From the NCBI GenBank assembly GCA_903950295.1, contig CAJBAP010000148.1, positions 1 through 8,753 of the forward strand: DNA of 8,753 bases, given 5' to 3'. Both the position numbers and the translations under genes were made by a program. Position 1 is the first letter of the stretch. Each line of letters starts with the position of its first letter. Positions 1,426 through 5,954 of this stretch are shown piece by piece. The notes beneath the pieces were generated by a model, which did not search any database, was not told the origin of the DNA, and saw only the letters and a list, made by a program, of their open reading frames with translations. The DNA comes from an uncultured Rhodocyclaceae bacterium (GTDB taxonomy: Bacteria; Pseudomonadota; Gammaproteobacteria; Burkholderiales; Rhodocyclaceae).

Positions 1426-1453
1426 ATGAAGGCGACTAGATGAAGGCGACTAC
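1426..1453. repeat. 14-bp tandem duplication at the envC stop codon
   Basis: The plus strand carries ATGAAGGCGACTA twice in tandem, as 14-bp units at 1426-1439 and 1440-1453 that differ only at the last base (G versus C). The right-hand copy contains the envC stop (TAG on the minus strand, 1452-1450). The left-hand copy carries the same TAG triplet out of frame, in the envC-ctpA spacer. It looks like a small slippage duplication that lengthened the spacer by 14 bp without changing EnvC. Confidence 0.85.
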
Positions 1454-2673
1454 GGAATCAGCCACTTTGCCGGATCGAATGCCCGCCCCTGATGCCTGAG
1501 CTCAAAGTATAAACCCGAATCTGCCTGCCCTCCGCCCCCGCCGATACCGGTACCTACCGTAGCCACCGTCGCGCCAGCGCCGACTTTTTGCCCCACGTCG
1601 ACCAGCAGTGTCTGGTTGTTGCCATACACCGACAGAAAATCGTCGTCGTGGTCGATGATGACGAGGTTGCCATAACCGCGCAACCAGTCGGCAAATACCA
1701 CGATGCCGCCAGCCGCCGCGCGCACGTCGGTACCTTCGGCAGCGCGGATGAACATCCCCTTCCAGACCGACTCACCATTGTCACGCCGGGTACCAAAACG
1801 CCCGGTGACAGTTCCCCTGACCGGCTGGATCAGTTTTCCTCGCAGCTTGGCGAAAGAACCGCCAGGGCGGACCGGTTCGGCCGCCAGTACGGGCGGCGGC
1901 GGGTCAGAACTGCGGCCACGACCAGCTTGCGCCGGTGGCTTGGCTTTAACCGGAGGGGGAGGACGCTTGGCCAGCGAATCGATCAACTGGCCAAGACGTT
2001 GCTCGTTTTGCTTGAGCGTATCGATCTCGCGGCGTTGCGCCTTGATCTGGTTGGCGATATTGGCCAGCACCACCTGCCGCTCCTGTTGGCGCTGCCTGAG
2101 GGTTGCGCGCTCATCTTCCTCGCGCTGGGCGATCTCGGTGAGCTTGTCGTTACGTTGTTGCACGACCTCCGCCAAGTGACGCGTTTCGACCGCATCGCGC
2201 CGCAGACCGGCAATCAACTCGGCTTTGGCACGCGACAGCAGAGCCAGAAAGTGGCGGTCGCGCGCCGCCGCGTTGGGATCGCCGCCGGACAGGAGCACGG
2301 CCAAGGCATCGGCTTCATGGGGGCGAAACTGGTAGCGCAACAGGCGTGCCAGTTGCGCCTGGCGGGCCGCGGTCTGGCGTTCCAGTTGCTTCAGTTCGCG
2401 TTCGCGCTCGGCCAGTTCAGCCTTGGTAACGGCGCGCTCCTCAGCCAGAACCCGCAGCTTGCGACCGACACTGGAGATGGATTTTTCGGTATCGCGCAGG
2501 CGATCGGCCGTCTCGGCATGTGAGGATTCACTTTGCTTGAGCTGACGTTCCAGCGCGGCACGCTGGCCGCGCAGTGATTCAAGTTTGGTCTTCTCGCGCT
2601 CGGCGCGTCCGTCGCCTGCCGCCAGTGCGATGACCGGCAGGCACAGCAGCACCAACGCAAGGCGACGTATCAA
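1450..2673 (-). CDS. envC: Murein hydrolase activator EnvC (degenerate LytM/M23 domain)
   Basis: Periplasmic activator of septal N-acetylmuramoyl-L-alanine amidases during cell separation. From a TTG start at 2673 the protein has 407 residues: signal peptide with MIRR then a hydrophobic run to ~19, long coiled coil ~24-235, Pro-rich linker ~236-272, C-terminal LytM domain ~278-405. The zinc ligands are gone. The canonical HxGxD site reads WKGMF (304-308), the Y-x-H site reads YGN (350-352), and the HFE site reads YFE (389-391). This is the degenerate pattern of EnvC rather than an active endopeptidase. An in-frame ATG at 2832 would add 53 residues, but that stretch has no signal-peptide character and crosses the upstream promoter region and the gpmA relic. 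The TTG places a normal signal peptide at the N-terminus and overlaps the relic's stop as TTGA. Another in-frame TTG 14 codons upstream cannot be excluded. ctpA follows 41 bp downstream. Confidence 0.93.
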   Translation of the reverse strand: MIRRLALVLLCLPVIALAAGDGRAEREKTKLESLRGQRAALERQLKQSESSHAETADRLRDTEKSISSVGRKLRVLAEERAVTKAELAERERELKQLERQTAARQAQLARLLRYQFRPHEADALAVLLSGGDPNAAARDRHFLALLSRAKAELIAGLRRDAVETRHLAEVVQQRNDKLTEIAQREEDERATLRQRQQERQVVLANIANQIKAQRREIDTLKQNEQRLGQLIDSLAKRPPPPVKAKPPAQAGRGRSSDPPPPVLAAEPVRPGGSFAKLRGKLIQPVRGTVTGRFGTRRDNGESVWKGMFIRAAEGTDVRAAAGGIVVFADWLRGYGNLVIIDHDDDFLSVYGNNQTLLVDVGQKVGAGATVATVGTGIGGGGGQADSGLYFELRHQGRAFDPAKWLIP

Positions 2674-2744
2674 ACTTTGGTTTCGCCCTGATTTCAGACA
2701 GATTCGCCGTGGCAAAGCAGAACAAGTTTGCAGGTAACGGGCAT
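2670..2744 (-). pseudogene. gpmA: Internally deleted relic of 2,3-bisphosphoglycerate-dependent phosphoglycerate mutase gpmA
   Basis: Reading from ATG at 2744, one frame gives MPVTCKLVLLCHGESV, a TGA (2696-2694), then NQGETKV and a second TGA (2672-2670). The first part matches the GpmA N-terminus (E. coli begins MAVTKLVLVRHGES). The second part, after the first stop, resembles the GpmA C-terminus (E. coli ends VANQGKAK). About 225 intervening codons, including most of the active site, are missing. The surviving RHG motif has become CHG, so the catalytic Arg is lost although the His remains. Both fragments are in the same frame and adjacent, consistent with an internal deletion plus decay (a premature TGA where Ala is expected). 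The last TGA overlaps the envC TTG start. Position supports the call: phosphoglycerate mutase genes commonly lie between envC and the rhodanese gene in proteobacteria. The N-terminal match is strong, the short C-terminal match moderate; homology was recalled, not computed. Confidence 0.72.
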
Positions 2745-2865: not shown

Positions 2866-3192
2866 ATGGACAACCCGATTATCGACATGATGGATCACAA
2901 GGAGCACGTCGAAATTGCCGCACGCGCGTTGAAGGCGATTTCGCATCCCCTGCGCCTGAAAATTCTCTGCGTCGTCGGCGATCAGGAGGTTTGCGTGCAG
3001 GATATCGTCGAAGCGGTCGGTACATCGCAAAGCAACATTTCGCAGCATCTGGCCATCTTGCGTGACAAAAGTGTGCTGACCACGCGCAAGGATGCCAATC
3101 GGGTTTACTATCGCGTCGCCGATCAGCGCACCCTGCAGTTGATCGTGATGATGCGCGAGGTCTTTTGCGGCGTACCCGCCGTGAATCATTGA
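2866..3192 (+). CDS. ArsR/SmtB-family winged-helix regulator, candidate persulfide/thiol sensor
   Basis: Cytoplasmic 108-residue DNA-binding repressor of usual ArsR-family length. Residues 17-34 contain the ALKAISHPLRLKIL signature helix. The helix-turn-helix spans ~44-65, with SQSNISQHL (54-62) as recognition helix. The wing follows with RKDANRVYYRV (74-84). It has three cysteines, Cys35, Cys43 and Cys101. Cys35 (directly after LKIL) and Cys101 (in the C-terminal helix, REVFC) are exactly 66 residues apart. The sensing pairs of SqrR (Cys41/Cys107) and BigR (Cys42/Cys108) have the same spacing, and YgaV has cysteines at comparable places. The classic arsenic motif ELCVC is not intact: EVCVQ is present, with a single Cys43. 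The downstream rhodanese and glutaredoxin fit a reactive-sulfur role. Family assignment is secure, the inducer is inferred. The ribosome binding site is weak (GAG at 2858-2860); starts at Met8 or Met9 are possible. Confidence 0.93.
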   Translation: MDNPIIDMMDHKEHVEIAARALKAISHPLRLKILCVVGDQEVCVQDIVEAVGTSQSNISQHLAILRDKSVLTTRKDANRVYYRVADQRTLQLIVMMREVFCGVPAVNH

Positions 3193-4533: not shown

Positions 4534-4974
4534 GTGTTTCTTGTGCGCGCTCTCTACATCCTATCGGGTCTGCTGTGTGCCGGCACGGCCACGGCCCTCG
4601 ACTATCGCTCGGTGAGCGACGTGGCGGTGCTTTACGATGCGCCCTCGCAAAAGGCAAAACCCCTCTTCGCCATTGCCGCCGGCACGCCGGTCGAGGCCAT
4701 CGTGACGCTCGATGTCTGGGTCAAGGTGCGTGATGCCAAGGGTGATCTGGCCTGGATCGAGCGCCGTCACCTGACCGAGCAACGCAGCTTGCAGGTACGC
4801 AGCGAACGGGCCCAGATTCGAGCCAGCGCAGAAGAGTCGGCGAAACTGGTATTCGAGGCCGAGGCCGATGTCGTGCTCGAATTGCTTGAGCCGGGCACGG
4901 CCGGTTGGGCCAAGGTGCGCCATCGCGATGGCGCGCAGGGATTCGTGAAGGCCAGCCAAGTCTGGGGGTTGTGA
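4534..4974 (+). CDS. Secreted tandem bacterial SH3-domain protein of unknown function
   Basis: With the GTG start at 4534 the product has 146 residues. It has a signal peptide (Arg at ~5, hydrophobic ~6-15, small residues AGTATA before LDYRS at ~22) and two SH3-like beta-barrel repeats, ~23-82 and ~84-146. Each repeat contains a [11 protein letters not shown] or [15 protein letters not shown] strand, a VDVELLE-like turn and a W(V/A)KVR strand; they end in AWIERRHL and [11 protein letters not shown]. The architecture suggests a periplasmic protein that binds peptidoglycan or a partner protein, but no catalytic domain is present and no specific function is recognised. The ATG at 4459 would add 25 residues encoded by the GC-rich repeat block and give an abnormally long signal N-region, so I prefer GTG 4534 (GTG 4543 also fits). 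Its stop overlaps the gpsA start by one base (TGATG), implying translational coupling. Confidence 0.85.
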
Positions 4975-5954
4975 TGCAACTCGCGGTTCTGGGTGCTGGC
5001 GCCTGGGGCACGGCACTCGCCTTGTCATTTGCCGAGCGCCATAAAGTCACGCTGTGGACCTGGCAGGCCGAACATGCCGCCGCCATGCAGAGCGCGCACG
5101 AAAATAGTGACTTCCTGCCCGGCTACCCGTTCCCGGAATCTCTCGCGCTCACGTCCGACTTCGCGGCCGCCATTGCCAACGCCGATCTTGCGCTCATCGC
5201 CACGCCGATGGCCGGATTGCGCGCCACCGCACAACAACTGGCACAAGCGCGTGCCGACCTGCCCTTCCTCTGGGTCTGCAAGGGATTGGAAACCGGCACC
5301 GGCTTGCTGCCGCATCAGGTCGTGGCTGACGTGCATGCAACTGCGCGCTGCGGCGCACTCACTGGCCCGAGTTTCGCCGACGAGGTGGCGCGTGGTTTGC
5401 CGGCGGCCATTACGCTCGCTTCCGCCGATGCCGCTTTTGCCAAGGCGATGGCCCAGGCCCTGCATGGCCCGCGCCTGCGCCTGTATGCCAACGACGATAT
5501 CGTCGGTGCCGAAGTCGGCGGTGCGGTGAAGAACGTCATGGCCATTGCCACCGGCATCTGCGATGGCCTCGGGCTGGGCCTGAATGCCCGTGCTGCCCTG
5601 ATGACGCGTGGTCTGGTCGAAATTACCCGCTTCGGTGTCGCCCTCGGTGCCCGGGCCGAAACCTTCATGGGTCTGGCCGGCATGGGCGATTTGATCCTGA
5701 CCTGCACCGGTGATCTCTCGCGCAACCGCCGCGTTGGCCTGGCGCTGGCGACCGGCAAGTCGCTCGCCGACATCCAGCGTGACCTGGGGCATGTCGCCGA
5801 GGGCGTGATGACCGCTCGCGAAGTAGCGCGCCGTGCCGAAACCTTGAATATCGACATGCCGATCACGGCAACCGTGCGCGACGTGCTGGATGGCCATCTG
5901 ACGGCCGCCGCCGCAGTAAATCGCCTGATGACGCGCGATCCGAAACACGAATAA
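4974..5954 (+). CDS. gpsA: NAD(P)-dependent glycerol-3-phosphate dehydrogenase
   Basis: Cytosolic enzyme that reduces dihydroxyacetone phosphate to sn-glycerol-3-phosphate, the backbone precursor of phospholipids. The protein has 326 residues, normal for the family. The N-terminal Rossmann fold opens with GAGAWG (7-12). CKGLE (102-106) carries Lys103, and [13 protein letters not shown] (131-143) is the family signature. The catalytic Lys is Lys186 in [10 protein letters not shown]. The C-terminal domain has [12 protein letters not shown] (233-244), SRNRRVG (249-255) and EGVMTA (276-281). The frame stays open upstream to an ATG at 4905, but the extra residues lie inside the SH3 gene and would precede the Rossmann strand, so ATG 4974 is right. 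Coupling to the SH3 gene by TGATG overlap is unusual, and cysE, which follows gpsA in E. coli, is absent here. Confidence 0.98.

Follow-up and report, generated by a model that had tools for sequence, protein, structure and literature searches.

A gpmA remnant ahead of envC in an uncultured Rhodocyclaceae bacterium and its possible retention as a translational leader

How is a glycolytic gene lost from an operon, and why would both of its ends stay behind, in frame, in front of envC? The question is raised by the window, an 8,753-nucleotide stretch of an uncultured Rhodocyclaceae genome (contig CAJBAP010000148.1 of assembly GCA_903950295.1), in which the minus strand between 2640 and 2780 translates as ...MPVTCKLVLLCHGESV*NQGETKV*. 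The initial annotation had read this site as a fossil of gpmA, the gene for cofactor-dependent phosphoglycerate mutase, and sequence comparison makes it almost certain that minus-strand positions 2744-2670 are such a remnant (Table 1). When the window was scanned in six frames, the site scored 67 against the GpmA N-terminus, compared with 22 for the runner-up and 31 for the best of 60 codon-block shuffles, and 28 against the C-terminal decamer, compared with 17 for the runner-up and 26 for the best shuffle. The N-terminal match is thus more than twofold above the shuffle maximum, and the C-terminal match is also the best in the window, with a smaller margin. At the DNA level, 33 to 49 of the 57 bases from codon -1 through codon 18 are identical to those of eight intact relatives, the highest values (47 to 49 of 57) being reached with L002, L004, L005, and L007; of the 28-base 3′ piece, 18 to 24 bases are identical in comparisons with nine relatives. 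In close relatives, gpmA begins with M(P/S)VTYKLVLLRHGESVWNKENRFTGW and mostly ends with ...AVANQGKAK(A/G/V).

Table 1. Positions of the gpmA remnant and its neighbors in the window, and of distant GpmA-like genes in other genomes
Feature	Position	Strand	Remark
gpmA N-terminal remnant	2694..2744	-	ATG + 15 codons (MPVTCKLVLLCHGESV) + first TGA, at the Trp17 position
ATG of gpmA remnant	2744-2742	-	
First TGA of gpmA remnant	2696-2694	-	
AATCAGG at putative deletion joint	2687..2693	-	Basis: sequence
gpmA C-terminal remnant	2670..2693	-	NQGETKV (2693-2673) + original stop TGA (2672-2670)
envC	1450..2673	-	Amidase activator of the M23 peptidase family; its TTG start overlaps the old gpmA stop
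Interval from arsR to gpmA start codon	2745..2865	-	Aligns in part with the sequence upstream of gpmA in relatives
arsR-family regulator gene	2866..3192	+	Divergent; marks upstream edge of the slot
Distant GpmA-like gene, G002	G002:C22:5118-5801		
Distant GpmA-like gene, G006	G006:C104:37803-38492		
Distant GpmA-like gene, G014	G014:C13:32921-33601		
Distant GpmA-like gene, G010	G010:C38:48345-49019		

A search for EnvC relatives gave 15 contigs, of which 14 are proteobacterial and 12 carry the name Rhodocyclaceae; the remaining contig, L015 (Kroppenstedtia, 31% over part of EnvC), was excluded from all counts. arsR and ctpA were present in all 14 relative loci, and genes for rhodanese, grx, secB, an SH3-domain protein, and gpsA were present in 12 or 13 of them (L006 and L007 are short contigs). 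Nine of the 14 loci carry an intact gpmA in the interval from arsR to envC, and in this Rhodocyclaceae genus gpmA immediately precedes envC and ctpA. The claim that the fossil sits in the expected place upstream of envC was borne out, as close relatives carry an intact gpmA in exactly that slot; alignment with the GpmA proteins and gpmA-envC junctions of relatives agreed in homology, place, strand, and the TTGA overlap of stop and start. Pfam matches back all nine window proteins that were submitted (ctpA and the last, truncated gene were outside this set), and a scan of viral contigs with GpsA returned no relative.

The initial annotation had described an internal deletion of about 225 codons that left both ends in one frame, with a TGA between them. 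The deletion was confirmed: the remnant comprises 24 codons, 228 fewer than the 252-residue GpmA of L002, and since both ends share a frame, the missing stretch of about 228 codons is a multiple of three. The first TGA is not the joint. The V*N of the window aligns opposite VWN in the relatives, which marks this TGA as a nonsense mutation of the Trp17 codon, and the joint lies near 2693-2687, because N-terminal homology continues into the N/Q codons (AAT CAG), which also open the kept C-terminal piece. Relatives have AAYCARG at two places, following the Trp codon and within the C-terminal NQG codons; AATCAGG may therefore be a repeat that recombined, and a deletion between two copies would yield the in-frame joint. 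Further changes in the remnant are Y5C, R11C, and two in the tail. With 24 of 252 codons, an internal TGA, and CHG in place of the catalytic RHG, the remnant is unable to encode the enzyme.

An organism with such a remnant would need another phosphoglycerate mutase, as had been pointed out from the sequence, and the distribution of gpmI agrees with this expectation. gpmI encodes the cofactor-independent phosphoglycerate mutase, which is unrelated to the gpmA product. Among the 14 relatives, gpmI was found in five and gpmA in the other nine. Among 19 genomes of the genus (that of G011), gpmA was found in 13 and gpmI in 6, never both and never neither, so that gpmI is present in 6/6 gpmA-less genomes. 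Of the 199 family genomes searched, 143 contained gpmA and 54 contained gpmI above its cut-off, and three (G058, G179, and G203) contained both. By subtraction, four (G028, G047, G115, and G191) have neither, a count that takes the split gpmI of G207 as present; these are perhaps incomplete genomes or ones with another mutase. Four gpmA-bearing genomes have an additional, more divergent GpmA-like gene that passes the TIGR01258 cut-off (Table 1). For the window organism, we predict that gpmI lies elsewhere in its genome.

G001 and G003 form a clade with the window (support of 100), and their gpmI occupies the slot between arsR and envC, oriented against envC (positions 3173-4738 of L001 and 3172-4746 of L003, in the old gpmA slot and pointing away from envC). 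L001 has a further gene of about 150 codons between arsR and gpmI. The gpmI tree conflicts with the locus tree, which indicates that gpmI probably moved by transfer, and more than once: gpmI of G003 is 95% identical to that of G022, and gpmI of G011 is 91% identical to that of G127, G022 and G127 belonging to other genera, in which EnvC is merely 49% and 50% identical, respectively, to the window EnvC. On a tree built from seven proteins, all of this same locus, the hypothesis that the six gpmA-less taxa share one loss of gpmA was rejected (AU P value of 3e-68). Joining the window clade with G011/G013 only was rejected by the AU test (P = 0.006) but not by the SH test (P = 0.317). These tests together indicate at least two, and probably three, gpmA losses.

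Stubs of gpmA were found in at least four genera, and remnants of differing shape coexist within one genus in the known slot of the lost gene. In G011, envC is preceded by MPVTCKPALPRHGESAPNRENRFTGSGATWA and then a stop overlapping TTG; the tail of this stub taken alone is not significant (P = 0.21). Because G011 retains codons missing from the window but lacks the tail that the window preserves, neither of these two stubs can be ancestral to the other. G022, from another genus, has the same design as the window, with MYEIVLRHDNESAAAAINQRKAQV and TTGA into envC, while G127 retains a middle fragment of GpmA. In the genus of G062, stubs were found in G062, G273, G278, and G282. In the genus of G121, gpmA is intact in G209 and G186, G298 has a clear stub, G155 and G121 have starts that are weak by score (22 and 21) but lie at the same place, and no stub was seen in G071. 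The scoring that gave 22 and 21 ranked ATG codons alone, and retention of the ATG was judged by the ATG-blind scan described below.

The envC start codon was compared across the genus. In the window it is assigned as TTG at 2673-2671 from its position and from a signal-peptide-like N-terminus; the second TGA of the remnant shares its first two bases with this TTG, and the first TGA ends 20 bases ahead of it. The gpmA stop and envC start form TTGA in 11 of 13 gpmA-bearing genomes of the genus, the exceptions being G210 (GTGA) and G005 (gpmA detached, ATG candidates), and TTGA is kept in the window. Both stub carriers of the genus, the window and G011, retain the envC TTG. Four gpmA-less genomes were also compared (G212 was left out): G001, G003, and G009, the last without any remnant, have ATG candidates for envC, and G013 seems to retain TTG although it has no stub. 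This pattern fits a weak envC start that leans on an upstream frame, with G013 as the one exception.

Retention of stubs was examined with an ATG-blind scan, in which the residues after the start codon were matched in 60 distinct arsR-envC stretches and 300 shuffles. The 60 stretches comprise the window, gpmI-bearing genomes without gpmA, the genus of G062, and G298; for the genus of G062 and for G298, the gpmI/gpmA state elsewhere in the genome was mostly outside the search. EnvC was searched in 59 genomes, and 44 stretches were fetched beyond five loci already in the set. G116 and G181 (contig edge), G058, G179, and G203 (both enzymes), and G050, G108, G145, G176, and G201 (no EnvC match) were left out. 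A divergent arsR was in reach in 62 of 78 stretches, some of them duplicates, and the other 16 were outside the test. gpmA starts were recognized in nine of the 60 stretches, eight of them above all 300 shuffles and G128 at P = 0.01, a level at which about 0.6 chance matches are expected in 60 stretches. The codon preceding the match is ATG in 8/9. In G022, the best register begins earlier, yet an ATG stands immediately 5′ of the matching YEIVL.

The window, G022, and G278 preserve both ends recognizably and in one frame, an outcome with one chance in 27 if the frame is free. Compared with 17395 background open reading frame (ORF) ends, the C-terminal P values are 0.0001 for the window, 0.0005 for G022, and 0.0003 for G278; the C-terminal ends of the other 9 of 12 stubs are not or only weakly significant (P of 0.038 or more). 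Among these 12 stubs, three of which are weak, eight are informative on stop position, and in these the stop lies 20 to 31 bases ahead of the envC start, a position expected in 6 to 24% of shuffles for each; this band and the envC starts were set by visual inspection once the data were known, and G062 and G273 do not count as independent cases. The other four stubs, including that of the window, are uninformative on stop position (P of 0.83 to 1.00). G062 and G273 are an orthologous stub pair, and there selection on the start is supported; the window stub is a single sequence. Over codons 1 to 14 together with the 20 bases that precede the ATG, 2 of 62 positions differ between the two, compared with 25 of 87 in codons 15 to 43 (Fisher P value of 2.9e-5). 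Differences in codons 15 to 42 are even over codon positions (8, 10, and 7). These two observations suggest that the start was kept and the peptide was not. Third positions taken alone (0/14 versus 7/28) are not significant (P = 0.075), and the bases further upstream were compared ungapped despite an indel, so that low identity there says little.

The account that we favor consists of gpmI displacement, gpmA deletion, and retention of the stub as an envC leader, and we give the whole a probability of roughly 0.55. The lineage would have gained gpmI, which would have made gpmA dispensable; a deletion, putatively at the short repeat, would have removed about 228 codons and left the first ~17 codons, the last 7, and the stop in one frame; and the stub would have stayed because envC uses it. 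Ribosomes would load at the gpmA ATG, translate the mini-ORF, stop just ahead of TTG, and then restart on envC by termination-reinitiation; that the stub is translated, and that envC depends on it, are predictions. Taken alone, the step in which the stub survives as a coupled leader mini-ORF for envC seems to us somewhat better than an even bet, and such a leader would explain the recurrence, the retained ATG, the shared frame, and the stop positions better than any other single account. The broader claim that dead gpmA genes were repeatedly whittled down to a mini-ORF in several betaproteobacterial genera and selected as a translation-loading leader for envC we hold at even odds. The earlier proposal that the 16-codon ORF persists as a leader peptide stands in part: the recurrent stub pattern fits a leader reading frame, whereas its translation is a prediction, and the TGA that breaks the window frame 20 bases before the envC TTG was counted against the coupled leader.

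The serious rival is neutral decay, in which gpmA, displaced by gpmI, is simply decaying and the stub has no function of its own, remaining only because selection removes any deletion that extends into the upstream control region or into envC. Under the strict ATG-blind test, no stub is seen in 51 of the 60 gpmA-less stretches; a stub is thus dispensable, and this is what makes neutral leftovers a serious rival; the nonsense and several missense changes in the window stub and the even drift of the later G062/G273 codons point the same way. Set against this are the ATG kept in the strict stubs, the in-frame ends in three lineages, the stops close to envC, and the conserved G062/G273 start region, and we regard neutral decay as plausible, at distinctly less than an even chance. 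A mini-ORF peptide or regulatory mRNA leader whose sequence matters, as in attenuator-like control of envC, could explain why the first 12 to 14 codons are nearly unchanged between G062 and G273, but stub tails vary freely between and within genera, which makes it unlikely. Still less probable is an assembly artifact in which the assembler skipped an intact gpmA by joining two short repeats: although the joint lies within a short repeat-like stretch, Y5C, R11C, W17 to stop, and two tail changes are unexpected from a mis-join, and different stubs occupy the same slot in other genomes. Chance resemblance to gpmA, for all that the tail is short, was tested and given next to no probability, the scores being far above those of shuffles and of any other window site, and the site coinciding precisely in place and strand with the gpmA of relatives.

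The coupled leader that we propose joins two known phenomena. Non-orthologous displacement of the cofactor-dependent mutase (dPGM) by the cofactor-independent one (iPGM), with losses and lateral transfers, was described by Foster et al. (2010, PMC2964296), whose table lists 56 dPGM-only, 4 iPGM-only, and 0 both among 60 Betaproteobacteria. As there, two unrelated phosphoglycerate mutases are exchanged between close relatives; that work, as far as its accessible text goes, is one of presence and absence and mentions iPGM pseudogenes but no gpmA remnant before envC, whereas the window holds a remnant of the lost gene in its own slot. Huber et al. (2019, PMC6728339) report termination-reinitiation at overlapping genes, with strict coupling in 13 of 14 tested pairs. 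As in those pairs, stop and start share bases in the window; overlaps are defined there as ATGA or TGATG, whereas the window start is TTG, and the gene upstream of envC is a dead one, reduced to a mini-ORF and known from sequence alone. A further paper on coupling and pseudogenes (PMC1586002) deals with another gene. Searching by title and the start of abstracts, with subscription journals mostly outside coverage, we found no description of a recurrent gpmA mini-ORF before envC. Within those sources, then, dPGM/iPGM displacement and coupling at overlapping genes are already known, and the recurrent mini-ORF was not found described.

In E. coli (NC_000913.3), the order gpmM-envC-yibQ (also in PMC12440217) likewise places a phosphoglycerate mutase gene directly before envC, as in the relatives, and the locus shares yibN, grxC, secB, and gpsA on the other side with the window-type locus. 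gpmM is intact and of the unrelated cofactor-independent type, in contrast to the gpmA remnant of the window. Since E. coli gpmM fills the same slot, a mutase gene of either type adjoins envC across classes. In our set, the E. coli K-12 slot, with gpmM before envC, is at 5261-8098 of L158.

Mutase displacement is usually deduced from which genomes have or lack each gene; at this locus, both the position once occupied by the lost gene and the remnants of that gene are visible, and the outcome is similar in other genera, with the start codon kept, the body lost, and the stop near the envC start. The locus thus poses two testable questions, namely, how an essential glycolytic step passes from one enzyme to another and whether a gene can be retained in an operon for the ribosomes that it brings and not for what it encodes. 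The locus may also be relevant to the question of why envC is preceded by a mutase gene both in E. coli (gpmM) and in these Betaproteobacteria (gpmA). If the coupled leader is real, the protein is gone and the gpmA start region persists as a regulatory part of a cell-division gene.

Two minor observations concern neighboring sequences. In L005 (G005), at about 4836-5000, the gpmA C-terminus is altered and reads SQGLKSPSSQPPLAGR; envC is detached there and has ATG start candidates. Between arsR and the gpmA remnant, where a promoter and terminator scan of the interval gave no match, including none of sigma-70 type, the window contains a near-palindrome (ATAACAG-TAAA-CTATAAT, 2805-2822), which we take to resemble BigR-type sites and which is probably the operator of the divergent ArsR-family regulator. 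A similar AT-rich stretch is found in the gpmA upstream regions of several relatives.
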